IMG/VR virus record: IMGVR_UViG_3300009159_000062
Coordinates: 1 to 64,000 of that record
Direction: 5' to 3' (one strand)
Length of the DNA stretch: 64,000 nt
DNA from: a virus
Shown here: positions 26,322 to 61,552 of the stretch, in pieces
How positions within the stretch are numbered: position 1 is the first letter of the stretch
How the letters are laid out: each line of letters opens with the position of its first letter
The notes under the pieces: model-generated
Databases searched by the model: none
The model's input: the letters and a program-made list of their open reading frames with translations, nothing else
What the model was told of the DNA's origin: nothing
Made by a program: the position numbers and the translations under genes

Positions 26322-26924
26322 CTATACCTCTTCTAAAACAACATTAATGTTCCATAAATCTTTTCCATTAAGACCATTTCTCTTAATAACAGAATATGAA
26401 AAATCTTTAAAATACATCTGAATTACTTGACTATACTTAGTTTGATTCACGTATTGATCGTACGCCAAAAATACCCAGAATGGCCCCTGGTTATTGTTAT
26501 ACCAATTTAATAAATCTAGCCCACCTGCTCCACCATCGACCGTGTATTGATCTTGACTAGTTATTTCGGTTTGACCAGTTGCATCAAAGTTTGGATATTG
26601 TTTAAATGATCTAGATGGCAACATTTGCCAAGAAGTAGCGAGTACAATTTTATCAGCAATATTATATGCCCTCATATTTCCATTAATCATTCTTTGTCTA
26701 TTTTGAATTCTTTCAGATGCAAATGATAACTCTGATCTATTATGGTCTGATAATATTAAAAAGTTTGCTCTTTCTGATTCTGGGGCATCTTGAAAGTCTG
26801 CTCCTGATTCATAACCATCTGGATAATAAAATCCATCAACTAGAGTTCCTGAATTTTTAGACCATAGTATTGCTTGCGGGGCACCGTATTTTCTTCTGCC
26901 ATCTAAATATGCTGAATTGGCCAT
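26322..26924 (-). CDS. Distal-tail-like protein
   Basis: A 200-residue protein between tape measure and hub, the usual place of the distal tail (Dit) protein. The C-terminus VIQMYFKDFSYSVIKR followed by DLWNINVVLEEV resembles the closing strands of such proteins. Its ATG overlaps the tape-measure stop (TAATG). Identity as Dit is by position; no diagnostic motif exists. Confidence 0.6.
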   Translation of the reverse strand: MANSAYLDGRRKYGAPQAILWSKNSGTLVDGFYYPDGYESGADFQDAPESERANFLILSDHNRSELSFASERIQNRQRMINGNMRAYNIADKIVLATSWQMLPSRSFKQYPNFDATGQTEITSQDQYTVDGGAGGLDLLNWYNNNQGPFWVFLAYDQYVNQTKYSQVIQMYFKDFSYSVIKRNGLNGKDLWNINVVLEEV

Positions 26925-29900
26925 TAGTATTTATTCCCCCTAATTCTTTGTGAATCTACATTTTTAATTTGAGCCATAACTATTCTTGCAATATCATTTG
27001 GATTTGCAGAAGTGCCGCTAGCATCAACCTTTAAACTATAATTATACACTGAGGTAGAGTTATTATTGATAGAATTAGTGCTCATGGCCATAAGTTTTGA
27101 TGATGACATTGGAGACATTGATCCAGGATATTTTGACTCGTTAATAGATGTTAGCAATGGGCCAAATCTTTTTGCTGCATTTTTATTAACTACAAATTCT
27201 CCTGGGGTAAGCATGGTAGGCACTTTATCTAACATACCATTACCAGCAACTATACCGCCATACATCTTCCCTGGAATTTTAACTGTTGTACCGCTGAAAA
27301 TTGTATTTCCACCATTGTATTTTGCCTGCTCTGTAAATTTTGGATTGGCTGCAAGAATTTTTGCAACAGTTGTATTATTTGCCTTGGCAATACCAGATAG
27401 CGTCTGACCGCTCTTGACTGTAACGCTTGTAGATGTTGTTTTGGTTGTGCCAGTACCAACAGTACCAGCAACTACGGCATCGCCCAGATCGGCTCCTGGC
27501 CCCCCGTCAGGACCTGCTCCTACACCACCTGCGCCACCGCCAGTGGTTAAAAATACGTTTCTAAGATTTTGCAATTCTGCAAATAGGTTTCTTGCTTCTG
27601 TTTGCAAATCAACCATTACGGTTTTAAGTGCAGATGAATCTCCAGTTGCTGCCTTAAGTATATTGTTTAAAAATGTAGCGTTATTAATATTAACTCCTGC
27701 TTCATTGGCAAGATCAAGAGCCTTTGCAGCATCTCTAATTTGATCAGCAGTCATTCCAAAATATTTAATGCTTTCTTTTTGTTTTGTAATAGTATCTTCA
27801 ATAACAGTTTTTTGTTTATTTAGTGCATCAATTTGTAATTGAATTTGTTTAGCACCAAGAGACGCAATAGCATTTTCTTTACCAGTTGTAAGTCCTTGTT
27901 GTGCTGCTTCCATTGACGCTGATGCTTGCTGTGATCTGGCTTCTTGAACTGCAGCGGCTGCTGCAGAAATATCACCACGACTTAGTGCATCTGCAATTGT
28001 TAATCTTTGTTTTTCTTGATTAGCAATATTTTCATTAAGTGTTTTTATTGTATTTAATGCGCCAATTTGTTTATCAAATTTTTCATTAATTTGATCTTCT
28101 TGTAATTTAACATTATCAAGTTGATCTCCTAAAGCCTTGGCCTGAAGATCAATACTTTTTAGTTGATCTTTATATTGCATATCAATAAGGTGTTCTTGTA
28201 AACTAATAAATGCCTCTGCTTTCTTAAACAGATATTGCTGATACTCTCCTGCACCGCCACCTACGGCAATTGTTTTTTCTAACTCTTTTTGCTTTTTCCC
28301 ATAATCTTTAATTGCTGCAACAGCATTTTTCCAATTATTACCAAGATATTTTGTTTTCTCAAGAATTTTAACCAAATCAACATTTCCAGCCATCTCTTCT
28401 GCAAGTGCTGCATTTATACCTTGTTTACGTAATTCTTTAAATGCTGTAGTTTGTGCTTGTATTTCTTTAGTTTTATCCTTTAGCAATTGCAAAGCATTTT
28501 TATCTCCAGCATTGGGAATTGTTGTTTCGCCTAATGCTTTTTGCATTTCTTTTACAGAACTTAATATAGCATCTTGAGTCAATTTAGTATCTTTTGTAAT
28601 TCTTCCCCTTACTCTTGAAGCAGCACGTTGTGCTCCGCCATCTGCAAACTCTTCTGCTGCTTTAAGGGCTGCAATCATTGCTGGCGTAATTGTTGTAACT
28701 CCAATTGCTGCTGCCTTAAGCACCAACATTTTATCTCCTACGTTTCCAAGACCAAGCGCAGCCTTAGCAGTTTCTGATCCCATTTGCTTTAATGCTGCAT
28801 CAACAAGCATTAGTTGGTTTTGTGTATTTGGCATTTTTTTCATTGTTGTTGAAAGATTTTCAAACATAGCGTCAAATTGTTTACCGCTAATAGTTCCATT
28901 TGCAAACATTCCAGATAAACCATTTACGTATGACGTAATGATTGAACCCTGACTTTTAAAATCTGCCCTTGCTTTCTTTCCAGCCTTTCCAGTTCCCCAA
29001 AGTGCTTCTGTCCACATTTTTCCATCTTTAAATTTTCCAAGACCAATAGAAATATCTGATGCCAATTTTGTAATATTTACAGAAACATCTTTAAAGTCCA
29101 ACTTAATACTATTTTTTCCAGCCTCTTCCTGAATTGCCTGAATCATTAATTTGACCTGTTCTTTAGAAAATCCTTGCCCAATTAACTCAACACCTTTTGC
29201 ATTTAATGCAGTTGCTGCTTGTGTATTATTTAACTTTTTAACAGCATTAATTGTTGGAATCAAAGTTTTAAATGTATCTGATTGTTTAAATTTATCAAGT
29301 TCTGTTTGTGCTTGTTGAGATCTTGGGGTAACTAATTTATTTCTTTCAAGTGGTGTTTGAGCAGCAGTTATACCAAAATAATCGCCAAGTGATTTTAGTT
29401 GATCTTTGGTTGTTACTACTGCATCAGACAAAGCCTCATATTTTTGCCTTTGCTCTTCCTGCAGGCTATTTATTTTTTTATTTCCAAGATATAATAATGT
29501 TGCTGCGGTTGCTGCAAGACCAATTGGACCAATAAACTTTGTCAATCCTACAGTGACCCTTGACAGAGATCCTACAATGCCTGATTTAGATGCAAGGCCA
29601 CCTCTGCCAACTGCGGTTTCAATTGCTGATGCTGCAATTCCTTTGCGCTTTGTTAAAAGTTCCATTGCTGATGCCTGTGTAAGTAGTTGTGTAACACTCA
29701 TCAATCCAAAAAGCAAACCAGAGTATTTCATAACCTGTTGTGATAAATCTCCAATTTTTCCACCAGCCATTGATCCCATAGCAGCCATTGATGTAAGTGC
29801 AAAAGTTCCAGACATTAGTGCACTGTTCATACCTTTTAAATTTCTACTGCTTTGTTTTACTTGCTTGTCTTGTTCTCCGTTTGCCCCACCTAACCCATAT

Positions 29901-32900
29901 GCTCCAAGCATGCCACCAGTAACCGACATGTTGGCTGATAAGTCTTTTAGCCTTCTGTCATTGTTTCTTCTAATAGATTTATCTATTGCTGATACTGGAC
30001 CAGTTGTCCCGTAAGTGAGAAGTCTACTAGATTTTGCTTTTTGATATGCCTGTGCGTCATCTCTACCATCTTGTGAAGCAAGTGGGTGTGGGCTTTTTCG
30101 TTCTCGTGATTCTACATAAATATCCTGAAGTCCGCCCTGCTCTAAGCCTGAAGAATATGCTGTAGCGTATTTTCTTCCAGCAACTATTGCTCCTTTTCTT
30201 TGTATTTCTTCTCTTGCTGCTATCTGCTTGTCCATAGGAAGTTTTAATGCAGCGCCTTGCAGTGGTGCCTGTCCAGAAATAATTCCAAGATTTTCTGGAA
30301 CAATATGTGCTTTAGTTACAACCCCTGAAGCCTGAATTGGCTGTGTTCTTGTTACAGATTTTAGCCTTCTGTCAAATGATCCAGCCTTGCCACCCTTGTT
30401 ACTATATATAGTGCTCTTTACAACACGACCAGTTGCGGGATCAACTGTTACGCCAGGAACTCTTGCATATCCACCAGATGTTATGTCTTCTTGTGTTGGA
30501 TATGCAAATTTTCTTAATCCTTCTCCAGCACTGCCTATTCTTCCCCCTTGCGATTTCATGGAGGTTAATATTTTTCTAATATCCATTTCAGCAGCAGCGA
30601 ACAATTCGCTAATGTGTTTTGCTGGAGTTCCTGCTTCTGTTAAACGCTTGCTCGTATCTCTAAGTGTATTTGTTATTTGTTCTGCATATGGCATAACTTC
30701 CTGAGCCATATCATTAATTGCAGATTGTGTTAACTTTATGTCACCTTCTACTGACCCTGCAGCAATAGCAGTGTTTCTCAGTGATTCAATAAAGCCCATT
30801 TGATTTATAAAATCTGGAGACATTCCGAAACCGCCAGCATTATTTCCAGGAGCAAACATTGTATATGGGGCAAGCATTCTTTGAGTTCCACCCTGCATTG
30901 ATGGGAATTTACCATCTGCAAATCCAGGAATATTATCTGCAATCATTCCCTTAATTAAAGGGCCATACTTTTTAACCATTGGGGCTGGAACAACTGCTTC
31001 CCCAGGGGTTAACAATGATGGAACATTGTCTTTGTTTCCAGATCCTGGGACAATAGAAATACCTTTTGCATATTTCTTTGGAGTTGACATTAATCCTGGA
31101 TTGTTAACTGCAAATTTTAATGCTGCTCCAGTTGCCTGTATATATGCATTTTTTAATTGATCAATAGCAACTCTTTCTACGTTAAATGTTTGTGTAAGCC
31201 TTGCATGGGTTTGATCTAAAGAACTTGCAACGGCTGCTGCGTCAATCTGTTCACTTGTTAAGTATTGAGTTTGTTCTCCTAAAACAGTTGACTGTCCACC
31301 AAGTTTTAAATAACCACCACGGAGCATTCCAAATAGTTTTAGGATATTTGCCAAACCATTTGCCAGCAAACCAAATGTCATCAAAAGAATTGGGCCAAGA
31401 CCGCCAATGACTGTTATTAATATAGTAATAGCCCTTTTAGATCCAGAAGACATATCTTTAAATTTAGAAAGAATGTTATTAACACTTTCTAGGATTGGGG
31501 TAATTGCTTCTAAAAATGCCTGACCAACTGGGATCAATGAGACCTTTAAGTCTTCAACTGTTTTCTTAAATTTATTCATAGCAGAATCAGCGGTAATTCC
31601 TAATTCCTTGTCTGCGGTTGTTGCAAGATCGGACATAGACATTTGTGTTAAATCTAATACACGAGATGCCTGAGTTCCATCATTAACAATGTTAGCAAAT
31701 AATGTTGATATACGAGAAAATTGGAACTTTCCAAATAGTTGTTCTATTGCTCTTGCACGATCTAGTGGTCTTAGAGTATTTAGTGCATCTGCAATTCCTA
31801 GAACGGTTGCTCTTAAATCCCCCTTGTTTTTTTCAACAATTCCACGAATATTAATTCCGACAGTTGCAAGCATATCTGATGCTTTTTTACTTGGATTAAT
31901 GATAGATGCTAGACCAGACTTTAATGCATTTGCGCCTTCTGCTGCATTGATACCGCCTTCTTTCATTGCAGTCATAAAGAATGCTAAGTCTTTAACATCT
32001 CCGCCAAGAGATTTTACAATAGGGGCTGCAATTGGAATTGCTGTTGTTACATCATCAAGAGATAAAACTGTTTGGTTTTCAACAGAGTTAAGGAAATTAA
32101 TTGAGTCTGCAAGGTCTTGACTAGAAATTTGAAATGCATTTTGTAAAGCAATTGTAGTTTCTAGTGCTTTTTGTTGATCAATTTGTCCAAGTACAGAAAG
32201 TCTTGTTGCCTGCTCTGTTTGTGCTTGTAAATCAAGTCCTTTAAAACCTGCTGCTGCAGCATCTGCTGCAAGACTAACTGTTTGAGAAGCAGCAATTCCA
32301 TACTTTGTGTATGAATTTGCTAAAGCATTTACGCCATCTAATGCTGCTTGAGTTTCTTCTTTTGGAGTTAATAAATCTCCATAAACCTTTCTAAATTTAA
32401 GCGCTGCAGTTTCCATATCCATAAATGCTTTTGATGCAGTAGATCCAAGCATTGCTAGTGGTAATGTAAAGCCGACCATTAACTGGCGACCAGCCCACTG
32501 AGTGTTCTTACCAAAATTTAATAGGTTGGTTGAGCCTTGCTTTAATAATTGATTAAATAGTTGTTGCTTTTGTGCAGCAATTTGCATTTTTGTTGCATAA
32601 TCAGACATATTAAGTTGTTTTGGAGTGATCGCCATTGCTTGCATAGCGCCTTTGGCATCTCTACCCATTTTAATATATTGGGTTTGCATTTTCTTAACAC
32701 GATCTTCTGCAACCTGTGAGATCGTGTCAAACTCTGTTCTAAATAATTTACCAAACGTCCTTGTTGATCCTGCTGCATATCTAAAATATTGCCTTATGCT
32801 AAATTTATTTTTTTCTAAAGAATTCGTAAACGCTTCTGTAGATGTTTTAATTGTTCGCATCTCAGCAGAAAATCTGCCCGTTGCATTAATAGCATTGAGC

Positions 32901-33058
32901 AGATCTGTCTGTAATGTGCGTTGTGCCAGTGCTGCCTGAGCACTAGACTTTGCTATATTAGTATGGAATAAAGATATCTGTCGTTGTAGAGACTTTAATT
33001 CCGAGAGTGCCTGAGAGGAGTCAATACTGACTTTAATGTTAGCATTAACATCACTCAT
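26924..33058 (-). CDS. Tail tape-measure protein with C-terminal LysM
   Basis: At 2044 residues this is the largest gene. The N-terminal 130 residues are coiled coil; about 200-500 carry the TP901-type tape-measure domain (AETAALKFRKVYGDL is the segment after the first hydrophobic span, then GFKGLDLQAQTEQATRLSVL). Hydrophobic segments lie near 545-570 and in the middle. DNVPSLLTPGEAVVP (about 670) and DKVPTMLTPGEFVVN (about 1970) are repeated motifs. A LysM repeat sits at about 1910-1960. If length follows the usual 0.15 nm per residue the tail is about 300 nm. A GGGGG ribosome site precedes the start. Confidence 0.93.
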   Translation of the reverse strand: MSDVNANIKVSIDSSQALSELKSLQRQISLFHTNIAKSSAQAALAQRTLQTDLLNAINATGRFSAEMRTIKTSTEAFTNSLEKNKFSIRQYFRYAAGSTRTFGKLFRTEFDTISQVAEDRVKKMQTQYIKMGRDAKGAMQAMAITPKQLNMSDYATKMQIAAQKQQLFNQLLKQGSTNLLNFGKNTQWAGRQLMVGFTLPLAMLGSTASKAFMDMETAALKFRKVYGDLLTPKEETQAALDGVNALANSYTKYGIAASQTVSLAADAAAAGFKGLDLQAQTEQATRLSVLGQIDQQKALETTIALQNAFQISSQDLADSINFLNSVENQTVLSLDDVTTAIPIAAPIVKSLGGDVKDLAFFMTAMKEGGINAAEGANALKSGLASIINPSKKASDMLATVGINIRGIVEKNKGDLRATVLGIADALNTLRPLDRARAIEQLFGKFQFSRISTLFANIVNDGTQASRVLDLTQMSMSDLATTADKELGITADSAMNKFKKTVEDLKVSLIPVGQAFLEAITPILESVNNILSKFKDMSSGSKRAITILITVIGGLGPILLMTFGLLANGLANILKLFGMLRGGYLKLGGQSTVLGEQTQYLTSEQIDAAAVASSLDQTHARLTQTFNVERVAIDQLKNAYIQATGAALKFAVNNPGLMSTPKKYAKGISIVPGSGNKDNVPSLLTPGEAVVPAPMVKKYGPLIKGMIADNIPGFADGKFPSMQGGTQRMLAPYTMFAPGNNAGGFGMSPDFINQMGFIESLRNTAIAAGSVEGDIKLTQSAINDMAQEVMPYAEQITNTLRDTSKRLTEAGTPAKHISELFAAAEMDIRKILTSMKSQGGRIGSAGEGLRKFAYPTQEDITSGGYARVPGVTVDPATGRVVKSTIYSNKGGKAGSFDRRLKSVTRTQPIQASGVVTKAHIVPENLGIISGQAPLQGAALKLPMDKQIAAREEIQRKGAIVAGRKYATAYSSGLEQGGLQDIYVESRERKSPHPLASQDGRDDAQAYQKAKSSRLLTYGTTGPVSAIDKSIRRNNDRRLKDLSANMSVTGGMLGAYGLGGANGEQDKQVKQSSRNLKGMNSALMSGTFALTSMAAMGSMAGGKIGDLSQQVMKYSGLLFGLMSVTQLLTQASAMELLTKRKGIAASAIETAVGRGGLASKSGIVGSLSRVTVGLTKFIGPIGLAATAATLLYLGNKKINSLQEEQRQKYEALSDAVVTTKDQLKSLGDYFGITAAQTPLERNKLVTPRSQQAQTELDKFKQSDTFKTLIPTINAVKKLNNTQAATALNAKGVELIGQGFSKEQVKLMIQAIQEEAGKNSIKLDFKDVSVNITKLASDISIGLGKFKDGKMWTEALWGTGKAGKKARADFKSQGSIITSYVNGLSGMFANGTISGKQFDAMFENLSTTMKKMPNTQNQLMLVDAALKQMGSETAKAALGLGNVGDKMLVLKAAAIGVTTITPAMIAALKAAEEFADGGAQRAASRVRGRITKDTKLTQDAILSSVKEMQKALGETTIPNAGDKNALQLLKDKTKEIQAQTTAFKELRKQGINAALAEEMAGNVDLVKILEKTKYLGNNWKNAVAAIKDYGKKQKELEKTIAVGGGAGEYQQYLFKKAEAFISLQEHLIDMQYKDQLKSIDLQAKALGDQLDNVKLQEDQINEKFDKQIGALNTIKTLNENIANQEKQRLTIADALSRGDISAAAAAVQEARSQQASASMEAAQQGLTTGKENAIASLGAKQIQLQIDALNKQKTVIEDTITKQKESIKYFGMTADQIRDAAKALDLANEAGVNINNATFLNNILKAATGDSSALKTVMVDLQTEARNLFAELQNLRNVFLTTGGGAGGVGAGPDGGPGADLGDAVVAGTVGTGTTKTTSTSVTVKSGQTLSGIAKANNTTVAKILAANPKFTEQAKYNGGNTIFSGTTVKIPGKMYGGIVAGNGMLDKVPTMLTPGEFVVNKNAAKRFGPLLTSINESKYPGSMSPMSSSKLMAMSTNSINNNSTSVYNYSLKVDASGTSANPNDIARIVMAQIKNVDSQRIRGNKY

Positions 33059-46090: not shown

Positions 46091-46690
46091 TTAAAGGTTT
46101 TTAAACCTTGGATTTCCCCAAGTGATCTCGTTGTATTTTAATCCAGGGTACGGAGACTCTCCTACTGGAGCATTCCAAAAATCAGAAACAAATAAGTCGC
46201 CCTCATCTATTGTGGTTATCTCTCTTTGAAACTCTTCTGTCTCTGGAAATATAACGCAGTCTCCTGGCTTTAGATCTACGGCAATTTTATAGTTTTTAAA
46301 TTTAAGTTCTCCCCCCGTATGTGAGTCTGTCCATTTTAAGATAGACCTAAATACATTCTTTGGTCTATTTGTAGACCATTGCATAGGAAAAGTTCTTTCA
46401 TTGGTAAGTCTAAAAATATAACTTTTTCCAAGAATTGGAGGATCATAAAAAATTTTAGTCATGTCACTAACCGCAACCCCTATTGCAGTTGCATATTTTT
46501 CAAAAACAGCAACAACCTCTCTTGTCATATCTCCATATGTGGCGATGTCAAATTCAACATTATGTTGTGAGTATAGTGGATCATGAAGAGGAATGTGATC
46601 CTCTTTGGTTTGAAACTTTACACTATTAATAAAGTCTTGAACTAACTGAATATCTTCTGCTGTAGCAACATTAATTATTTGATAGTTCAT
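46091..46690 (-). CDS. Degenerate 2OG oxygenase-like (DSBH) protein
   Basis: Start ATG 46690 (MNYQIINVATAED) overlaps the ribonucleotide reductase stop as ATGA; the frame is open to 46723. The 199-residue sequence has the shape of a Fe(II)/2OG oxygenase (GGELKFKNYKIAVDLKPGDC, VIFPETEEF, DLFVSDFW), but the expected HxD reads S-T-N in MQWSTNRP and the distal His is Arg in REITTI. It therefore looks like a catalytically dead double-stranded beta-helix protein. It may bind a ligand or structure the virion. Confidence 0.65.
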   Translation of the reverse strand: MNYQIINVATAEDIQLVQDFINSVKFQTKEDHIPLHDPLYSQHNVEFDIATYGDMTREVVAVFEKYATAIGVAVSDMTKIFYDPPILGKSYIFRLTNERTFPMQWSTNRPKNVFRSILKWTDSHTGGELKFKNYKIAVDLKPGDCVIFPETEEFQREITTIDEGDLFVSDFWNAPVGESPYPGLKYNEITWGNPRFKNL

Positions 46691-48717
46691 GATGTTTTTA
46701 TCTCGCAATAGTCTGTAGTGCAATACATTTCGCCTTGAGCCTCAAGGTTTTCTGCTCCATCATAAATAGCAGACCAGTTAATCTTGCCAATTTTGCCAAC
46801 ATACTCACTGTAATCTTTTTCTGTAATTTCTGTGTATGGTTGCTGTGGATAAGTTTTATTTCCCATTGGAAGAAATGAAACTGCCTTTAATTGGCCTTCG
46901 TACATATTAAGGGCTGGAGCAATAAACTTTGTCTCTTCTTCTTTATCAAAAGAAAGAGTTACAGAAACACCATTGTCTGACCAATATTTTTGAGCAGTTG
47001 CTGCCAAACCAATTTTCTCAAATAGGCTAACTTGTTTCTCAGAACGTTTGTGTCCTGATGCTACTGGGAAATAAACTACTTGAGTATTTGCTGAAACAAG
47101 GTCTGGTTCAATTTTATATCCCGCTGCTTTAAATAAATGTATCATTGGGTCAGTGTTACCAAAACGAATTGCACGAAGATAAAATGCACCGCCTGGCCCC
47201 CAGTGAACTCCAGGGGTGGCACCAGAGAGAAGTGAAACAGATCCTGATGGCTTAACTGTTGTTACACGAACCGACTCACGAACACATAGCCATTCTGAAT
47301 AGGAATGGTCATACTTACGAATTGTTTTGTAACCTTCATCCATCCATTCACGAATAACTGGAAGTCCATGCTCGTCAGCAAATGCAGCAATACCTGTAAG
47401 AGATGTGCCAATGCGTCGATTACGTTGCATGATACCGTTTGTAATTGGCCAGTGTGTTGGCATAAGCGTAACAGTTTTTCCATACAAGTAAGCAAACTTC
47501 AATGTCTTTAAAAAATCTTCTTTTGAATTATGGCGATTAAGGTGAACCTCTACCAAAGTACAAAGTTCATAAGATTCTAATGGTTGTTCTGCACAGGGAT
47601 TAAAACCCATAACACGTGCATCTTTGTAGTCTGGGGCATCTGCAAGACGGCCATAGTCACGAGCAACTCCAAGCCAAATAAAACCTGGCTCTCCATTATC
47701 GGCAATTAAATCTACATAGTCTTCATATTTTGTTCCAACCTCGGCAGCAATAGAATTATTACTCATCCATGCCCAACCTGGTTTATCTGGATTATAGGAG
47801 TTTCTCTCTGCAAAAACTTCTGGATTCTTGAGATTAATGAAGTCTTTATCTTCTGGGGTTCCTAGTGCAAGAGTTGCAGAACGGCGAACATTTCCAGAAA
47901 CAACACAAGTTCCAATAAGGTTTACAATGTCAACAATTGCACGACTATCAAGTGGCTCAGTCGCTCTAGAGCCTACAACATTCCTGATACGTGTATGAAG
48001 GTCAATAAGTGGTTCAGGACCGCTAGCGACCCCTCCAAAGCCCTTAATTGGTGCTCCTAGAGGACGGATAAGGTCGTAATTAAATTCCTGGATTGATTGA
48101 TTTTGACGCAAAAATGAATTAATCAAAAGTCTTACTGACTCTACCCAGCCTTCACGAGTATCTGGAATTTCATAAATGGATGCTGGTTCTGTTGGGGCAT
48201 AAATAAACATTTGTTTTTCTTGTCCAAGGGTATCAAATCCAACTCCAATGCCTAGCATTAAAGCATCCATAACCCATGCAAATAATGCTCCTGGATCGTT
48301 ACGATCAATATCTCTTGTTGAGACCATTGCACAATTTTGAAGGGATGCAGAGTTGCGCTTCTCCATAGTCATAGGAGTACCAAATGCCCAAAGACCTCGA
48401 CCTGGCGGAGTCCATTTAAGATTAAACATTCTTTCGTAAGCCTCTTGTGCTGACTTTTGAGCCTTATAGTCATTCCAGGGAAGGCGGTTTTCTTTGGCAT
48501 GATTTTTTTGTACTGAGTACATGCCTTCAATTACACGCTTACAAACCTCGTACCATCTTTCTTTAGTTCCATCTTCTTTCATTCGAGAATATGTTCGAAT
48601 AAAGGTGATCTCTCCTAGTGAGTTAGTAGCAGCATCTTTAAAACCAAAGGGTGCTTCAAGTTTTTGATAACTCTCTATAAAATCTGATGATAGTTTAAAA
48701 GAAAAAAAGTCTGACAT
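46687..48717 (-). CDS. nrdJ: Class II (B12-dependent) ribonucleotide reductase
   Basis: I choose ATG 48717 (MSDFFSFKLSSD), with GGAG nine bases upstream; the frame opens at 48732. The 676-residue enzyme makes deoxynucleotides. The active-site loop NPCAEQPLESYELC puts Cys and Cys 11 residues apart with the CxE motif, as in the monomeric class II enzymes. ASLQNCAMVST holds the other redox Cys and a C-terminal YCTTDYCE pair shuttles electrons. It needs adenosylcobalamin from the host. A TGC TATACT promoter lies at 48749-48757. No thioredoxin gene is in the window. Confidence 0.92.
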   Translation of the reverse strand: MSDFFSFKLSSDFIESYQKLEAPFGFKDAATNSLGEITFIRTYSRMKEDGTKERWYEVCKRVIEGMYSVQKNHAKENRLPWNDYKAQKSAQEAYERMFNLKWTPPGRGLWAFGTPMTMEKRNSASLQNCAMVSTRDIDRNDPGALFAWVMDALMLGIGVGFDTLGQEKQMFIYAPTEPASIYEIPDTREGWVESVRLLINSFLRQNQSIQEFNYDLIRPLGAPIKGFGGVASGPEPLIDLHTRIRNVVGSRATEPLDSRAIVDIVNLIGTCVVSGNVRRSATLALGTPEDKDFINLKNPEVFAERNSYNPDKPGWAWMSNNSIAAEVGTKYEDYVDLIADNGEPGFIWLGVARDYGRLADAPDYKDARVMGFNPCAEQPLESYELCTLVEVHLNRHNSKEDFLKTLKFAYLYGKTVTLMPTHWPITNGIMQRNRRIGTSLTGIAAFADEHGLPVIREWMDEGYKTIRKYDHSYSEWLCVRESVRVTTVKPSGSVSLLSGATPGVHWGPGGAFYLRAIRFGNTDPMIHLFKAAGYKIEPDLVSANTQVVYFPVASGHKRSEKQVSLFEKIGLAATAQKYWSDNGVSVTLSFDKEEETKFIAPALNMYEGQLKAVSFLPMGNKTYPQQPYTEITEKDYSEYVGKIGKINWSAIYDGAENLEAQGEMYCTTDYCEIKTS

Positions 48718-48748
48718 ATGCGTAATCTCCATTTACTGTAATTGCTTA

Positions 48749-48949: not shown

Positions 48950-49600
48950 TTATAAAGGCATCCATTTATTTGGCTTTACTCCAACTAGACTATTCATTGG
49001 TGTAATATCATATGCAATTGTTATTCTCTTACTATCAAAAAACCAGTCATCTCTTCCATGTGGGTGCCCAGTTTCTGAAAGAATTGCTCGATTATTTTTA
49101 TTCACATTCTCAAAAACATTATTCTTTTCTTTGTTAATTTGATAAAAAGTAGAAGATGGCTCTGCCTCTACACAATAATATCCATGAAACCAAGGAGCCC
49201 CTAGGCCATCAGAATGATCATGAAAATGAGAAGGATGTTTTAATGGATTGACACCATTGCTTCCAATTGTTTTAAGGTCTGAGTTAAACCATCCATGAAT
49301 TAGATATTTTTGACTATCAAAATCAATGCCATAGTATTCACAGGCCTGCATAGTTAATTTTTTTAATGCTTCTTTTAGTTTAAATATTTCTGGATTAACA
49401 AAAGTAAATATGTTATAGTAATTAATTCCCAATTGAGTGAGTGTGCCTGGCTGATTCCTATCATACTTTTTTAAAATATCACTTGGAACTGATAAAATAT
49501 TCTCTGTAAAAATTTTTTCTTCTATTTCAGATAAATATTGTTTTAATGACTCTAAGTCATTGTCTAATGTAACATCAAAAAACTTATGGCTTGGTTTCAT
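48950..49600 (-). CDS. 2OG-Fe(II) oxygenase-like protein, tandem copy 2
   Basis: ATG 49600 (MKPSHKFFDV) overlaps the upstream stop as ATGA, so it is the likely start; the frame is open to 49627. The 216-residue protein has an iron-site-like HFHDHSD followed by PWFHGYYCVEAEPS and a distal GHPHGRDDWFFDSKRITIAYD. This is the putative 2OG-Fe(II) oxygenase pattern in which a Cys-containing strand follows the first His. It is a near copy of the gene upstream at 49597-50244. Confidence 0.7.
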   Translation of the reverse strand: MKPSHKFFDVTLDNDLESLKQYLSEIEEKIFTENILSVPSDILKKYDRNQPGTLTQLGINYYNIFTFVNPEIFKLKEALKKLTMQACEYYGIDFDSQKYLIHGWFNSDLKTIGSNGVNPLKHPSHFHDHSDGLGAPWFHGYYCVEAEPSSTFYQINKEKNNVFENVNKNNRAILSETGHPHGRDDWFFDSKRITIAYDITPMNSLVGVKPNKWMPL

Positions 49601-50244
49601 GCTAGTGGAATCCAATGCTGTTCCCATTCTGGCATTATTCCCTTATGTGGTATTACGTCATAGGCTACTGTTATTCTTGGGCCTTCCCAATTCCAGTCTG
49701 CCATAGCATGAGGGTGCCCAGTTTCTGAAAGAATGGCTCTATTATTTTTATTGATATTCTCAAAATCTTTATCAAAAACTTTATAATGAGTTGTTGATGG
49801 CTCTGCCTTTACACAATAATAACCGTGAAACCATGGTGCTCCAGAGCCTCCATGTTCATGCCAATCTAATTTTCCAACATGATTGTAGTTAATATTAAAC
49901 CAACCCTGAACCCAAAAATCTTCTTTTTCAAAGTCAATTCCGTAGTATTCACAGGCTTCGAATGTCATTGATCTTACTGATCTAAATAATTTATGAATTG
50001 CTGGATGATAAAATTGAAATACATTGTACTTGTTCCATTTGCTAGTCGTTATGCTTCCAGAGGTATCCCAGAGTGTTTTTTCTCCCTGATCATTTTTTAA
50101 TATTTCCCCATTTTTAATGCGGTCATATTGTTTTCCTAAAAATAATGACAAATCGTCTAAGTCAGAGTTTAAATTTCTTTCAAAAAATTTATGCGTAACG
50201 CTAGTATTAATGCTAGTGCTTTTTAAAGGTACGTTGTCGTACAT
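49597..50244 (-). CDS. 2OG-Fe(II) oxygenase-like protein, tandem copy 1
   Basis: A 215-residue protein with His129-x-His131 in DWHEHGGSG, then PWFHGYYCVKAEPS and distal His177/His179 in ETGHPHA with Arg190. Compared with copy 2, long stretches are identical in protein and partly in DNA (the 3' half near ILSETGHPH). GGGAGAT precedes the start, and a TGA TATACT promoter lies at 50268-50276. Likely a hydroxylase of unknown target. Confidence 0.7.
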   Translation of the reverse strand: MYDNVPLKSTSINTSVTHKFFERNLNSDLDDLSLFLGKQYDRIKNGEILKNDQGEKTLWDTSGSITTSKWNKYNVFQFYHPAIHKLFRSVRSMTFEACEYYGIDFEKEDFWVQGWFNINYNHVGKLDWHEHGGSGAPWFHGYYCVKAEPSTTHYKVFDKDFENINKNNRAILSETGHPHAMADWNWEGPRITVAYDVIPHKGIMPEWEQHWIPLA

Positions 50245-50292: not shown

Positions 50293-51516
50293 TTATTTAT
50301 TGTGAGTTAAATAATCTCCAGCAATAAACCAGTCTTGTGGTTCACAACTAAATGATAGAACGGTATGTGATGTATCGTCTGTGTCTATTGATGTTACTGG
50401 AACTTCAATAATTGACCCATCTTCTGCTACCTTGATTAATGTGTCTCCGATAGCAACTCCACCTGCTTCAATAAATACATAGAACGGATTGCCTTTAATA
50501 AACATTGGGTGATTTAAAGAAAACTTTGAGTTGCTTTCTCCGTTAAAATAAATAACCTCTTGGACAATTGATGGGACTATTGCGGTAACAGTTACGTCAA
50601 CAAGACCAGTACTAGTTGTAGTTGGTATTGCAATACTTCTCCAGTCAGAATCTGTTTGATCTCCATCGCCCAATGGTAACTCTGCTATGCCTATTGTTCT
50701 CATTTGATCATCAATTTGTATATCTTTTGCTGCAATTGTTCCACCTGGTACTCTAATTAAAGTGTCTTCATGAACGCATGGTCCAACTGACCAAGGCGTA
50801 AAGCCAAATGCGCCGAATGGAGTGAATCCAAACGGGGTGAATCCAAACGGGGTGAATCCAAACGGGGTGAATCCAAAAGCACCGAATGGAGCAAATCCAA
50901 ATGGTGTGAATGAGAATGATGTAAGTGTTGCAGAATATTCAGAGTATTCTGAATTTCCATTAGCATTATTTGCTCTTACACGATAAGCCTGAGCAGTTCC
51001 TGCTTCTTGTCCCACAGAAACAGAAGTTGATCCTGTGTTGCCAGATTTGCTATCATTTGATTCCCAATCATAACTAGTAATTGCTGAGCCACCAGTTGCA
51101 GGGGCTGTCCAAGAAACATCATCTGTTGCTGCTGAGCCTTGAGCAGTTGCAGTAGGTGCTGATGGTTTATTTGGAACAGTTGTTGCAGTAATGCTATTAG
51201 ATGCTGCGGATGCTGGAGAATTTCCAATTGAGTTTGTTGCTATGACTGTAAATGTATATGCTGTGTCTGATTGTAAACCAGTTACAGATATAGGAGAAGA
51301 TGATCCAGTACCAGTATATGATCCTGGAGTGGATGTTACTGTATAAGATGTGGCAGCAAGTGAGTTTGCTGGCAAAGAAAATGTTACATCTGCCCGTCCA
51401 TTATTGTATGCACGTCCAGATGGGACATTTGTTGCGCTAACTGACTCTGGGGCTAATGGCTCCACAAAGTCATTTGATGCTTGGGACTTTCTGCCCGTTC
51501 TCTTACCTGATGCCAT
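50293..51516 (-). CDS. FN3-FN3-(GFTPF)n-Hint tail protein
   Basis: A 407-residue modular protein. Two FN3-like domains (about 15-110 and 110-200) precede a GFTPF-type repeat (about 200-245), then a Hint domain from Cys247 to the end (161 residues). The Hint shows an intact start (GPC followed by VHEDTL), the conserved SLNHPMF histidine block and a C-terminal YLTHNK, so the catalytic Cys, His and terminal His-Asn are all present. Only one residue follows the Asn. It should cleave at Cys247, possibly transferring the adhesive N-terminal part to another nucleophile. The Hint is a close copy of that at 60704-61552. Confidence 0.82.
   Translation of the reverse strand: MASGKRTGRKSQASNDFVEPLAPESVSATNVPSGRAYNNGRADVTFSLPANSLAATSYTVTSTPGSYTGTGSSSPISVTGLQSDTAYTFTVIATNSIGNSPASAASNSITATTVPNKPSAPTATAQGSAATDDVSWTAPATGGSAITSYDWESNDSKSGNTGSTSVSVGQEAGTAQAYRVRANNANGNSEYSEYSATLTSFSFTPFGFAPFGAFGFTPFGFTPFGFTPFGFTPFGAFGFTPWSVGPCVHEDTLIRVPGGTIAAKDIQIDDQMRTIGIAELPLGDGDQTDSDWRSIAIPTTTSTGLVDVTVTAIVPSIVQEVIYFNGESNSKFSLNHPMFIKGNPFYVFIEAGGVAIGDTLIKVAEDGSIIEVPVTSIDTDDTSHTVLSFSCEPQDWFIAGDYLTHNK
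50788..50920 (-). repeat. GFTPF tandem repeat in FN3-Hint protein
   Basis: A 15-base unit coding G-F-T-P-F repeats; at 50830-50875 three copies are identical in DNA (ccaaacggggtgaat). It links FN3 domains to the Hint domain and is partly broken by AFGF and FAPFG variants. Confidence 0.8.
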
Positions 51517-51540: not shown

Positions 51541-53274
51541 TTATGCTGAAAGATCGCCGAATACTACCCAAGAATCAGTTGCACGCTTAAATAGTGTACA
51601 AGATGACCACCGTGTTCGTAGTTTTAGGCCTGGGGTAGAGTTAACAGTAACTCCGCTATCTCCTGCAATTGTAACCTGTCCTGTTCCTGTCTGAAGAATA
51701 TCCAGAGTAGTTCCGACTGGGTAAGCAACTGCGCTATTTAGTGGGATAGTAATTGTTGTTCCTGATGCTGAATTTACTTCAATTAAAGAATCTCTTTCAG
51801 ATGTTGCTGAAAGTGTGTATGAAGCAGTCTTAGAAATAATTGGTGTCCGTGAAGGCACGCCTTCTTTTGTTTGTGTTCCATCTGTATACGCAATACCATT
51901 TGCAGCAACAGTTACAAGACCTGTAAATGTTGGGCTAGCAATCGGGGCTTTTGCAGAAAGATCTGTTGTGAGACCTGAAATTTTAGACTGTGCAATTGCT
52001 GCTGAAGCATTAATATCTTCGTTAAGAATTGTTCCATCAAGAATCATTGTTGAAGTTACTGTTCCTGTTGGAAGAGTGACTGTTCCTGTAAATGTTGGTG
52101 AAGCAAGTGGTGCTTTTAATGCAATTGCGTTTGCAGTTGTTGCTGCAAAATTAGCATCATCACCCAGTGCTGCTGCAAGTTCATCAAGAGTATTTAGAAG
52201 TCCTGGTGCAGAATTAGTTAATATAGCAATTTCTTGCTGCACAAACGCTGTAGTAGCAATCTGTGTTGTATTAGTTAATGTATTTGCTGTTGGTGCAGTT
52301 GGAGTACCAGTAAGTGTTGGTGAAGCAAGTGGAGCCTTAAGATCAAGGGCTGTTTGTGTAGCACTTGAAACTGGCTTGTTGGCATCTGTTGTATTATCAA
52401 CATTTCCAAGACCTACATGTGACTTTGTAACACCAGATACTGTTCCAGTAAATGTTGGTGAAGCAATAGGTGCATATGTGGTTGCTGCTGTTGAAGACTC
52501 AAGTTTTGCTGAAAGATTAGAAACTAAATCTGTAATCTTAGATTGAGCAATTCCATTTGCTAATTTAGCATCTGTTACTGCTCCGTCTTTAATTTTTGCT
52601 GTTTCTACAGAATCAGTAGCAAGTTTTGCTGCTGTAACTGCTCCGCTTGCAATCTTTGCTGTCTCTACTGCATCAGAAGCAATCTTTGCTGCTGTTACTG
52701 CGGTGTTGGCAATCTTGGCATCAGTTACAGATCCGTTTACTGGTGTACGCTCATTAGTAAGTGCTGCGTTGTCATTATAAACAAGGTTTAGAGTATTAGA
52801 AATACCGTGAACACTTGTATTTGCTGATGTATGTGCACTTGCATTGCCAGTCAGCCAAGATATTTCTGAAGTTGTGTTGGCAGTTAAGTTAGTAACATTA
52901 CTTGTTAGGTCTGATATTGAGTTTGAATTTATTGCTATAGTATTCTGTAAACCATTTAAACTTGTTGTAACGGTATATGCATAGTTTGCATCTCCGTTAA
53001 TCGAATTTGCTAACTCCCAAATACTATTAAGGGCGTTTGGAGCATTTCCAACTAGGTCTGCGACTGCTGCGTCTACTAGGCCTTGAACTTCTGATGAGTC
53101 AAATACTATAGATGCATCTACGAAGTATGCTAGGCTTGTCCAAGCACTTGATCCGTTACCCATTTTAAATTTATTTGTATCTGTTTCAAAACCAATTTCA
53201 CCTGCTGCTAGAGTTGGGTTTGCTGCAGTCCATTGTGCTGCAGTTCCTCTGCGCTGTTGCATTCTTGTTGCCAT
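51541..53274 (-). CDS. Tail fibre protein with collagen-like TANT repeats
   Basis: A 577-residue fibre. The start MATRMQQRRGTAAQWTAANP followed by TLAAGEIGFETDTNKFKMGN is the standard phage fibre head. The middle has repeated AKIANTAVTAAKIASDAVET, then APLASPTLTGTPTAPTAN and similar SPTFTG units typical of long fibres. The C-terminal 95 residues (DILQTGTGQVTIAGDSGVTV) form a module shared with 61552-62172. A GGAGGC ribosome site and a TGT TATAAT promoter (53311-53319) stand upstream. Confidence 0.8.
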   Translation of the reverse strand: MATRMQQRRGTAAQWTAANPTLAAGEIGFETDTNKFKMGNGSSAWTSLAYFVDASIVFDSSEVQGLVDAAVADLVGNAPNALNSIWELANSINGDANYAYTVTTSLNGLQNTIAINSNSISDLTSNVTNLTANTTSEISWLTGNASAHTSANTSVHGISNTLNLVYNDNAALTNERTPVNGSVTDAKIANTAVTAAKIASDAVETAKIASGAVTAAKLATDSVETAKIKDGAVTDAKLANGIAQSKITDLVSNLSAKLESSTAATTYAPIASPTFTGTVSGVTKSHVGLGNVDNTTDANKPVSSATQTALDLKAPLASPTLTGTPTAPTANTLTNTTQIATTAFVQQEIAILTNSAPGLLNTLDELAAALGDDANFAATTANAIALKAPLASPTFTGTVTLPTGTVTSTMILDGTILNEDINASAAIAQSKISGLTTDLSAKAPIASPTFTGLVTVAANGIAYTDGTQTKEGVPSRTPIISKTASYTLSATSERDSLIEVNSASGTTITIPLNSAVAYPVGTTLDILQTGTGQVTIAGDSGVTVNSTPGLKLRTRWSSCTLFKRATDSWVVFGDLSA

Positions 53275-58936: not shown

Positions 58937-59473
58937 ATGACGAAAGACGATTTTGTAGTTGGAGGCTTAGCATTTTTAATGGTTGTTTCAACTTTGTTTA
59001 ATGCAACCAACGCTCAAGCAGTAAAGAAAGAAGAGTTTCTGGCACGGGTTGCTTCCCAGCAGGCATTGGAGCAAACCTCACACATAGAAATTATGAAAAA
59101 ATACAAGAATGCCAAATCTTTAAATGAAGAACAATGCAAAGAACTTTTATCGGCAGTTGGTTTTGAAGGAAAAGCCTTAAAGGTTGCTTGGGCGGTGGCT
59201 CAAAAAGAATCAAACTGTAGACCTGTGGCTATAAACAATAACCACAATACTGGAGATAACTCTTATGGCATATTCCAAATAAACATGATTGGTGAATTGG
59301 GACAGGCTAGACTAGAAAAATTCGATCTTGATTCTAAAAAAGATCTTCTTGATCCAGTTACAAATGCAAAAATTGCTTTCTATATGACCAATAAAGGGGT
59401 AGACTGGTCTTCTTGGACATATTTAGATGGAGAAAGATTTAAACAGTTATTGCTGGAATACCCGAAATACTAA
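58937..59473 (+). CDS. Secreted lytic transglycosylase-like lysozyme
   Basis: A 178-residue protein, the sole plus-strand gene. AGGAGG lies 7 nt before ATG. The N-terminus has a signal peptide (VVGGLAFLMVVSTLFNATNA, AQA cleavage near residue 28). Residues 84-140 have the SLT pattern with catalytic Glu91 in AVAQKESNCRP, then DNSYGIFQIN and a late MTNKGVDWSSW. It would cleave peptidoglycan from outside the membrane, for lysis or entry. Its stop overlaps the convergent minus-strand gene as CTAA. Confidence 0.85.
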   Translation: MTKDDFVVGGLAFLMVVSTLFNATNAQAVKKEEFLARVASQQALEQTSHIEIMKKYKNAKSLNEEQCKELLSAVGFEGKALKVAWAVAQKESNCRPVAINNNHNTGDNSYGIFQINMIGELGQARLEKFDLDSKKDLLDPVTNAKIAFYMTNKGVDWSSWTYLDGERFKQLLLEYPKY

Positions 59474-60114
59474 AAATAAGCGATTGCTAGATATTGACTT
59501 CCAGTAGTTATTGGGTAAAATTTATGAGACCAGTCACTACCAGATGGGTAGATGATGACATCTCCTTCGTTAAGAGTTGTTGGATCATTACCAACTCTAT
59601 CTTTAAATTGAATCTCCCCTCCAGAATAACCGCTGCTTAAGCAAATTATTATTGTATTTTCATGTAAGGCGCTATTCCTGCTTTGATCATCAATAAACTC
59701 TGAAGCCTTTATATTTTTACATATAGTCCATGGCTTGATCGTCTTTGCTGTTTGTTCTTTTATTTTTAAATAATCAATAATAAATGGGAAAGCAAAAAAA
59801 TTTAAAGTGCTTTCTAGTTTTAGTTTTTTTATGTGAAACTCTGACTGTTTATTCATTATGTCAAAATAAGGGTTAAAAAATGGAGCCTTATTCTTTATTT
59901 TTTTTTGAGATTTTAAAAAAACTCTTGTATCTTTTATTGTAAAAATTTCACTAAAGTCTGTTAAATTAGTATTGTTTATATTTTTTTTAGATGATATTTC
60001 CCACATATTTTCTGCACAATCTGAATCTTCTAAATCTTTTAAAATTGTAAAAAAATCAAACATTGAATTATTTTTATATAACAAAATATCAGTATCTAAT
60101 TGTATTTTATTCAT
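59470..60114 (-). CDS. 2OG oxygenase-like (DSBH) protein, partly degenerate
   Basis: A 214-residue protein whose C-terminal 75 residues follow the SM-20/2OG pattern (IIICLSSGYSGGEIQFKDRV, LNEGDVIIYPSGSDWSHKFY, PITTGSQYLAIAYF). The expected HxD reads H-E-N in SALHENTI, while the distal His (SDWSHKFY) is present. An Asn in place of Asp may leave weak or no iron binding. It converges on the lysozyme gene with overlapping stops. Confidence 0.6.
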   Translation of the reverse strand: MNKIQLDTDILLYKNNSMFDFFTILKDLEDSDCAENMWEISSKKNINNTNLTDFSEIFTIKDTRVFLKSQKKIKNKAPFFNPYFDIMNKQSEFHIKKLKLESTLNFFAFPFIIDYLKIKEQTAKTIKPWTICKNIKASEFIDDQSRNSALHENTIIICLSSGYSGGEIQFKDRVGNDPTTLNEGDVIIYPSGSDWSHKFYPITTGSQYLAIAYF

Positions 60115-60117
60115 AAG

Positions 60118-60702
60118 TTATCCGATTCCGTTAGCGAGTACTATAAAATTTTTTGTAAAATAAAAATGTCCTTCGTTTAATTTTAAAGAGTAGGCCTGGT
60201 CAAAAACTGTACGTCCTGGAGGTACAACTGCTTCTGTTTCTGTAAAAGATGACTCTGTATTTTTTTTTAATATAGAACTACGACTGTAGCCTTTCTGTGT
60301 GCCTTTTGCTATCTCGTCAATATTTGCAATAGTAAAAGCAGCAAGAGCATTTTCTTTATCTTTTATTTTGTTATATTTTGCTTCATAGCCGTCGAATCCT
60401 AAATCATTTAATTTTATAGCAATATATTGATTTTTCTGTATTCTATTTTGATTTACGTATGTAAAATCTGTCATGTTGTTGCTTTCTGCAGAATACAGCG
60501 ATGCTTCACAGATTTCATATTCATGAACAATTCTATCTCCTGCAATTATTTTTGTAAAAATATCAGAAACATCTTCTATCCCATCTTGAGTAACCTTTAT
60601 AGATAAAACTTTATCTCCCGCATTTAAATCTTGCGGATAAGACAGGCTTCCATTGCTTAAATATACTTTTTCTGAAAGTGGCAAAGATGAATCGTAAAAC
60701 AT
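60118..60702 (-). CDS. Degenerate Hint-like protein
   Basis: The start is ATG 60702 (MFYDSSLPLSEKV), one base after the Hint gene stop; the frame is open to 60798. The first residues (SSLPLSEKVYLSNGSLSYPQ, DLNAGDKVLSI) read like the opening Hint block without the catalytic Cys, and the end (VFDQAYSLKLNEGHFYFTKN, FIVLANGIG) like the closing block, with the His-Asn replaced by Ala-Asn. The fold may be kept without self-cleavage. Called by pattern; moderate confidence. Confidence 0.5.
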   Translation of the reverse strand: MFYDSSLPLSEKVYLSNGSLSYPQDLNAGDKVLSIKVTQDGIEDVSDIFTKIIAGDRIVHEYEICEASLYSAESNNMTDFTYVNQNRIQKNQYIAIKLNDLGFDGYEAKYNKIKDKENALAAFTIANIDEIAKGTQKGYSRSSILKKNTESSFTETEAVVPPGRTVFDQAYSLKLNEGHFYFTKNFIVLANGIG

Positions 60703-60703
60703 T

Positions 60704-61552
60704 TTACTTGTTATGTACCAAAAGATTACCAGCAATAAACCAATCTTGTGGTTCACAACTAAATTGATATACATTGTGGGATGTGTCGTCTGTGTCAATA
60801 GAAGTTACTGGTAATTCTGTAATTGATCCGTCAAGTCCAATTTTGATTAAAACATCTCCAATTGCAACTCCTCCAGCCTCTACAAAAACATAAAATGGAT
60901 CACCTTTTATAAACATTGGATGATTTAAAGAAAACTTTGAACCAATATCTCCATTAAACCAAACAACCTCTTGAACAATAGATGGAACTATAGCCGTAAT
61001 TTTTGTTACAGAAATTCCTTGACTAGTTAAGGTTGGGATTGCGATAGATCTCCAATCTACCTCTGTATAGTCTGTACCGCTTAAAGGAATTTCTTCTATA
61101 TTGATTGTTGAGATTTCCTGATCTATCTCTATATCTTTGGCTGGAACATCTCCCGTTGGAGTTCTAACTAAAGTATCTTCATGCACGCAAGGGCCAACTA
61201 CCCATGGAGTAAAGCCAAAAGGTGTAAATCCAAATGGAGTAAAGCCAAAAGGTGTAAAGCCAAAAGGGGTAAATCCAAAAGGGGTAAATCCAAATGCTCC
61301 AAATGGAGCAAAACTAAATGTATAGTTAACCAAATTTACAATTTGGCCTAATTCTTCAACTGTTCCAGCGGGGATGTCTTGTGACTTAATTTTATTATTT
61401 AAATTAGAATCGCCAGTGCCTTCATTTGTTGTATTGTAGTTAAATCCTAGTCCGCTCAATGTAGACTCTGCTGTAGTTTTATCAACCCCGACTAAATTGG
61501 GAATTGAATTTCTACGAAATATTTTATTTCCACGGCCAGGATTTTTTGCCAT
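60704..61552 (-). CDS. PASTA-like-(GFTPF)n-Hint tail protein
   Basis: A 282-residue protein. Residues about 15-65 resemble a PASTA domain (IPNLVGVDKTTAESTLSGLG), followed by AFGF and six near-identical GFTPF units (about 75-117), then a Hint domain from Cys122 to the end, exactly 161 residues as in the other copy. VHEDTLV, SLNHPMF and LLVHNK keep the catalytic Cys, His and His-Asn. Only Lys follows the Asn. The protein may self-cleave and pass its N-terminal adhesin to another nucleophile. TAATG coupling to the gene upstream. Confidence 0.82.
   Translation of the reverse strand: MAKNPGRGNKIFRRNSIPNLVGVDKTTAESTLSGLGFNYNTTNEGTGDSNLNNKIKSQDIPAGTVEELGQIVNLVNYTFSFAPFGAFGFTPFGFTPFGFTPFGFTPFGFTPFGFTPWVVGPCVHEDTLVRTPTGDVPAKDIEIDQEISTINIEEIPLSGTDYTEVDWRSIAIPTLTSQGISVTKITAIVPSIVQEVVWFNGDIGSKFSLNHPMFIKGDPFYVFVEAGGVAIGDVLIKIGLDGSITELPVTSIDTDDTSHNVYQFSCEPQDWFIAGNLLVHNK
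61200..61320 (-). repeat. GFTPF tandem repeat in PASTA-Hint protein
   Basis: Six to seven 15-base units coding G-F-T-P-F with synonymous changes (ccaaaaggtgtaaat-like), ending at the Hint Cys codon 61187-61189. Less homogenised than the repeat at 50788-50920. Confidence 0.8.

Follow-up and report, generated by a model that had tools for sequence, protein, structure and literature searches.

A Hint autoprocessing domain as the C-terminal end of phage tail adhesins, with self-removal as the favoured reading

Described Hint systems and their phage tail counterparts

A-type bacterial intein-like (BIL) domains are defined by His-Asn at their end and by the absence of a nucleophile at position +1, and BIL domains of such make-up chiefly cleave (PMC7664689, PMC7765530). 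A domain that fits this definition, ending in His-Asn-Lys-stop (HNK-stop), closes a 407-residue tail adhesin encoded in a 64,000-nucleotide stretch of viral DNA (the window), itself part of a 70,347-base virus record. With the A-type domains of C. thermocellum (2lwy) and T. thermophila (BIL2, 6y75) it shares the fold (Z 16.7-17.1), Cys1, the His-Asn end, a +1 residue that is not a nucleophile, and a setting in variable surface-type proteins. The A-type domains, however, have flanks on both sides, whereas a single residue follows the Asn in the window, and the window family is further set apart by an aromatic repeat linker upstream, by its phage tail setting and by relatives in which His-Asn is dispensable. 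The C-terminal autoprocessing domain of Hedgehog (1at0), a protein to which cholesterol becomes covalently linked, likewise shares the fold (Z 16.5), the C-terminal position and a conserved N-terminal step, but the window Hint has no sterol-recognition region and no known acceptor, and the Asn is still present in the window copies. Class 1 inteins possess a +1 nucleophile, a C-extein and a block-F Asp, all three of which the window Hint lacks. The pretoxin Hint (PT-HINT) of polymorphic toxins also lies near the end of a surface-delivered protein, but is followed by a toxin, of which the window protein has none.

Among cultured phages, tblastn with the window Hint matched NCTB only, while a Ser-type Hint query matched Erwinia, Dickeya and Yersinia jumbo phages; the FN3-Hint, PASTA-Hint, degenerate Hint and Hint-less proteins used as queries returned no further cultured Hint relatives. 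Of the three Hint proteins encoded by NCTB, two are long and of tail type. Each of the Erwinia, Dickeya and Yersinia phages has a single one, encoded within the tail-fibre block and showing Cys, Thr-x-x-His and His-Asn ahead of a tail of about ten residues. Such a tail reads, for example, TDIVAKAEKT, and these proteins (L125-L130) are annotated as virion structural or tail proteins. Thus NCTB, Erwinia phage Y3, Dickeya phage AD1 and Yersinia phage fHe-Yen9-02 resemble the window in having tail-block proteins with a C-terminal Hint, and differ from it in lacking the aromatic linker, in continuing 7-10 residues past the Asn, in being only about 25-30% identical and in belonging to jumbo phages. 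The records of NCTB BN7874_136 and Y3 gp110 carry the note 'putative phage tail protein, contains intein domain'. The literature searched yielded no publication about a phage tail protein that ends in a Hint, and the papers on phages AD1 and PaBG do not mention one; apparently the arrangement has never been studied and figures in records under the remark 'contains intein domain' alone. A structure search also recovered the domain in three UniProt entries from uncultured Caudovirales phage (A0A6J7WKC1, A0A6J5MFV5, A0A6J5NY54), which, going by their names, share FN3 and PASTA partners with the window; the names ('Hint domain containing', 'Fibronectin type III', 'PASTA_pknB') are automatic and come without a described function.

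The FN3-Hint gene and the fold of its C-terminal domain

The virus record holds terminase, portal, head maturation protease, tape-measure and tail fibre genes. The FN3-Hint gene (Table 1) lies in the tail-fibre block, preceded by a gene with an Mtd_N domain (51541-53274), and has a good ribosome-binding site (aaaggag) ahead of its ATG. The tape-measure gene (26924-33058, minus strand) encodes 2044 residues, with an endolysin/transglycosylase-like stretch close to the end of the protein. Four 2OG-Fe(II) oxygenase-like genes (46091-46723, 48950-49627, 49597-50244 and 59470-60114, all on the minus strand, two of them weak matches) occur in the tail region, an unusual number for a single tail block, and a class II (B12-dependent) ribonucleotide reductase gene (46687-48732, minus strand) is flanked by tail-fibre genes.

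Table 1. Window coordinates of the Hint-terminated tail genes, their parts and the companion gene
Feature	Position	Strand	Basis
Tail adhesin with C-terminal Hint, whole gene, 407 aa	50293..51516	-	ORF and translation
Two FN3 domains, about residues 23-200	50917..51450	-	Pfam fn3 3.2e-9, two stretches; borders approximate
Aromatic/proline repeat linker FSFTPFGF...(GFTPF)n...GFTPW, residues 201-242	50791..50916	-	TRF, 15-base repeat
Hint domain, Cys247-Asn406	50299..50778	-	AlphaFold pLDDT 90.3; VIA-align Z 16.5-17.1
Cys247, predicted nucleophile, intein position 1	50776..50778	-	Structural register; Cys/Ser in 80/80 relatives
His336, block-B His in FSLNHPMF (S-L-N-H; Ser replaces usual Thr)	50509..50511	-	Translation, alignment
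His405-Asn406-Lys407-stop, block G and one-residue C-extein	50293..50304	-	Translation; HNK-stop in 29 non-redundant relatives
Second Hint-terminated protein, 282 aa: PASTA, GFTPF linker, Hint, HNK-stop	60704..61552	-	PASTA 4e-7
Companion, stand-alone degenerate Hint-like protein, 194 residues	60118..60702	-	hhalign E 5e-7; Z 10.8 to BIL2, low-confidence model

Translation, Pfam and TRF bear out the residues listed in an earlier note on this DNA, namely Cys247 after Gly-Pro (Pro246 at -1), FSLNHPMF, a C-terminal His-Asn-Lys-stop, FN3 domains and a GFTPF linker. The linker reads FSFTPFGFAPFGAFGFTPFGFTPF...GFTPW, and its repeat is a 15-base tandem repeat at 50822-50877. The C-terminal 161 residues begin Cys-Val-His-Glu-Asp-Thr-Leu and end Leu-Thr-His-Asn-Lys-stop, so that Lys407, the +1 residue, is the last of the protein. 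Pfam and PHROGs did not recognise the Hint of this protein, and Pfam found no Peptidase_S74 match in it. A profile built from 24 relatives, however, matches solved Hint structures, best of all the C. thermocellum BIL domain (2lwy, E 5.7e-10). The structure prediction that the earlier note had proposed, made with 48 relatives, gave a Hint fold (pLDDT 90.3, pTM 0.86; Foldseek E 4.4e-8; VIA-align Z 17.1 over 136 residues). Four structures stand nearest to it, namely T. thermophila BIL2 (Z 17.1), the Mtu RecA mini-intein (16.9), the C. thermocellum BIL (16.7) and, at 16.5, Hedgehog; differences of less than 1 between these scores are read as ties. The model is thus unambiguously a Hint fold, far beyond chance. 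The register by structural alignment puts Cys247 (model residue 10) on residue 1 of the RecA intein and on Hedgehog Cys258, and Asn406 (model residue 169) on the final intein residue. In light of this register the catalytic residues named in the earlier note are the right ones, and its description of a Hint autoprocessing domain with almost no C-extein holds, the profile match, the confident fold and the catalytic residues in register agreeing.

Two of the classical helper residues appear weak in the alignments: the block-B Thr is Ser, and the block-F Asp is missing, the family having Ser or Gln at the Asp site of the RadA intein in an HMM alignment. Three further elements are absent from the domain: it is a 160-residue mini form lacking a homing endonuclease insert; there is no toxin domain after it, HNK being directly followed by the stop; and there is no sterol-recognition region, the protein stopping at block G. 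An ordinary mobile intein was accordingly rejected, there being neither endonuclease nor C-extein. A class 3 intein (Trp-Cys-Thr), considered on account of Cys391, was rejected as well, since the alignments place Cys391 beyond the block-F nucleophile position and relatives have Ala, Val or Thr in its place.

Relatives with and without the Hint domain

Pattern scans of uncultured viral contigs, with search patterns that did not include the nucleophile residue, yielded 80 tail-linked Hint domains after near-copies were removed. At position 1, 59 of them carry Cys and the other 21 Ser, with no other residue observed, and on a maximum-likelihood tree, in which the positions of long branches are unsure, the Cys/Ser change occurs once. 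Selection thus bears on the nucleophile. The C-terminal His-Asn is present in 42 of the 80, and exactly one Lys followed by the stop in 29 of 88 non-redundant sequences. Loss of His-Asn affects 17 members, spread over about three clades; 12 of these members simply stop at ..Ile-Ala or ..Ile-Ser, and all 17 retain Cys. The reverse case, His-Asn kept and the nucleophile lost, was not seen among the 80 relatives. The block-B position is His in 42, Gln in 34 and Glu in 4 of the 80. Pro at -1 is found in 4/80 relatives, but both window copies carry it. A broad alignment (A2) contained no stretch conserved enough for scanning.

Upstream of the nucleophile the linker varies (GFTPF, FFPPF, HFPPHF, AFG) while remaining nearly always aromatic: Phe, Tyr and Trp make up a median of 36% of the preceding 45 residues against a background of 10%, and at least 20% in 73/80, the remainder being jumbo-phage members. 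The N-terminal partner domains vary as well (FN3, PASTA, glycine-rich). Purifying selection is evident in the Hint (dN 0.048, dS 0.60, dN/dS ~0.08), and the linker has dN 0 and dS 1.2 relative to L001.

The 21 Ser members form an atypical clade in which Ser1 is combined with Asp at the end, mostly as His-Asp-Ser, and many have a conserved tail of 36-46 residues. In one alignment (A5, including L082 and L085) the type shows an invariant Ser1, the block-B His, His-Asp-Ser and the conserved 36-46 residue tail. This Asp-ended set could splice or crosslink, and its activity may differ from that of the Cys members.

Outside phages, a surface protein from a Patescibacteria MAG (L131:2328-5219) has Ig-like and peptidoglycan-binding domains, a (YYAQSN)n aromatic repeat and a C-terminal Hint ending HNKSGFFFSQAIP, a layout that matches the phage proteins and was the one bacterial match. 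Since YLVHNK was among the patterns that retrieved it, its HNK cannot count as independent evidence, although its Cys can.

The earlier note overlooked a second copy of the arrangement and the degenerate companion, as well as the frequent lack of the block-B His and block-F Asp. The PASTA-Hint protein of the window has a Hint 71% identical to that of the FN3-Hint protein, and is followed by the companion gene, whose ATG at 60702 lies one base past the PASTA-Hint stop and whose product has no nucleophile Cys. The gene pair recurs in other phages; the companion also stands behind Hint-less PASTA proteins (L065, L066, L113), and none adjoins the FN3-Hint gene. A chaperone or partner role is possible for it.

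In orthologues that lack the Hint, the chain stops no more than a few residues away from the linker. One (L022) ends GFAPWGGGRYPI, and others end GFAPAYFYFF (L027/L028), FFPAFAGFRYQ (L031-L033), FSPPFR (L065/L066) or APPNFR (L113); L024-L026 bear a short Cys-rich end. This Cys-rich tail (L024:2998-3936) reads GGCGSACYFCAYDFGAGCGCQCAY after the linker and is identical in three contigs. As the L024 and L031 ends are each repeated in three contigs from different metagenomes, sequencing error is unlikely, and as L022 and L027 are followed by a homologue of 49597-50244, just as in the window, these genes occupy the same slot. The Hint is therefore directly seen to be a removable module. After the predicted cut the window protein would end GFTPWSVGP; since the Hint-less orthologues end at the linker, at the would-be cut, a protein resembling the cleavage product fills the slot elsewhere.

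Probable self-cleavage at the N-terminal junction and its alternatives

The reading that we favour, and hold to be rather probable, is that a BIL-like Hint removes itself from the adhesin by N-terminal cleavage, whatever the acceptor. A Cys or Ser nucleophile in 80/80 relatives suggests that the N-terminal junction undergoes acyl-shift chemistry, and the loss of His-Asn about three times with Cys always kept, the reverse being unseen, implies that the N-terminal step is the selected one. Selection on nucleophile, linker and Hint, together with a dispensable Asn step, thus favours self-removal. The C-terminal 160 residues would act as a BIL-like autoprocessing domain in which, after folding, Cys247 attacks the Pro246-Cys247 bond to give a (thio)ester. 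When this (thio)ester breaks down, the FN3 adhesin would be set free, now terminating in the aromatic linker, and the Hint would be either discarded or kept as a separate piece. Cyclisation of Asn406 would be accessory, removing at most one Lys. The predicted product is a mature tail adhesin whose end is the (GFTPF)n stalk, resembling the proteins of relatives in which a Hint was never present. The cleavage itself, its timing and its final acceptor, whether water or another nucleophile, are what we infer.

Several observations qualify this chemistry. The earlier note had taken the Gly-Pro junction as a positive sign, but Pro at -1 is unfavourable for acyl shift and thioester formation in several well-studied inteins, and, being rare in the family besides, it suggests that the window copies may be slow or conditional. 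The absence of the block-F Asp and the frequent Gln in place of the block-B His likewise suggest that the chemistry may be slow or altered. Conservation of HNK-stop in 29 members, strict within one large group, is unexplained by self-cleavage, removal of one Lys seeming pointless; one idea is that the Lys407 amine might take over the N-terminal part, leaving the adhesin with a single added Lys.

A Hint that, with the stand-alone companion, acts as an assembly-time chaperone, helps the aromatic stalk to fold or oligomerise and then cuts itself off is unlikely. This role would suit its placement at the C-terminus of tail proteins from a tail-fibre gene block and the coupling of the companion to PASTA-Hint genes, and S74 tail-fibre chaperone domains are a known precedent (PMC7824862), but the Hint-less relatives presumably fold unaided and the companion is missing beside the FN3-Hint gene.

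The earlier note had proposed either release of the adhesin or its transfer, as a thioester, onto a virion or host-surface nucleophile. Release is plausible and agrees with the linker-ended Hint-less orthologues, while transfer went unsupported. Such a built-in thioester generator would, by analogy with Hedgehog ligation, tie the stalk, during assembly or adsorption, to its own Lys407 or to a partner, either a second virion protein or the host surface, that offers an amine or hydroxyl. The close fold match to Hedgehog (Z 16.5), which uses the N-terminal step only, and the Hedgehog-like residue set left by loss of His-Asn with Cys kept both speak for it, as do the internal-thioester adhesins by which bacteria bind hosts covalently (PMC4450167) and the thioester adhesin that aids conjugation in Bacillus subtilis (PMC8092201). 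It is nonetheless improbable, there being no known acceptor and nothing like a sterol-recognition region in a protein that stops at block G, and the same slot being filled in Hint-less phages by a protein incapable of such chemistry.

We are equally doubtful of a non-catalytic, optional display domain, the Hint fold having been recruited for binding or capping at the fibre end. The presence and absence of the Hint would fit this too, and a block-B His that is often Gln, a missing block-F Asp, the loss of His-Asn in about three clades and the Pro at -1 in the window all lean towards it, but a Cys/Ser nucleophile, needless for display, is retained in 80/80. That the Hint truly splices, its C-extein being very short, or is a mini-intein left over is scarcely credible: this is suggested by Cys, Thr-x-x-His and His-Asn-Thr plus ten residues in cultured jumbo phages and, in the Ser clade, by Ser, His and His-Asp-Ser ahead of a conserved tail of 36-46 residues, but the +1 residue is Ala or Val in NCTB and fHe-Yen9-02, and in the window the +1 Lys, no nucleophile and directly followed by the stop, makes ordinary splicing unexpected and would gain one residue at most.

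When a Hint domain turns up in a phage, it is usually a parasitic intein within a replication or packaging gene. In this case the Hint is the fixed C-terminal end of tail adhesins across a large family of mostly uncultured phages, freshwater-type phage included, and a few cultured jumbo phages, and the odd 'intein domain' notes in the jumbo-phage records now find their place in that one family. The nucleophile is always kept, and the Hint-less orthologues serve as natural controls. If self-removal is true, phage tails gain a self-processing step, a chemistry undescribed for virions in the literature searched.
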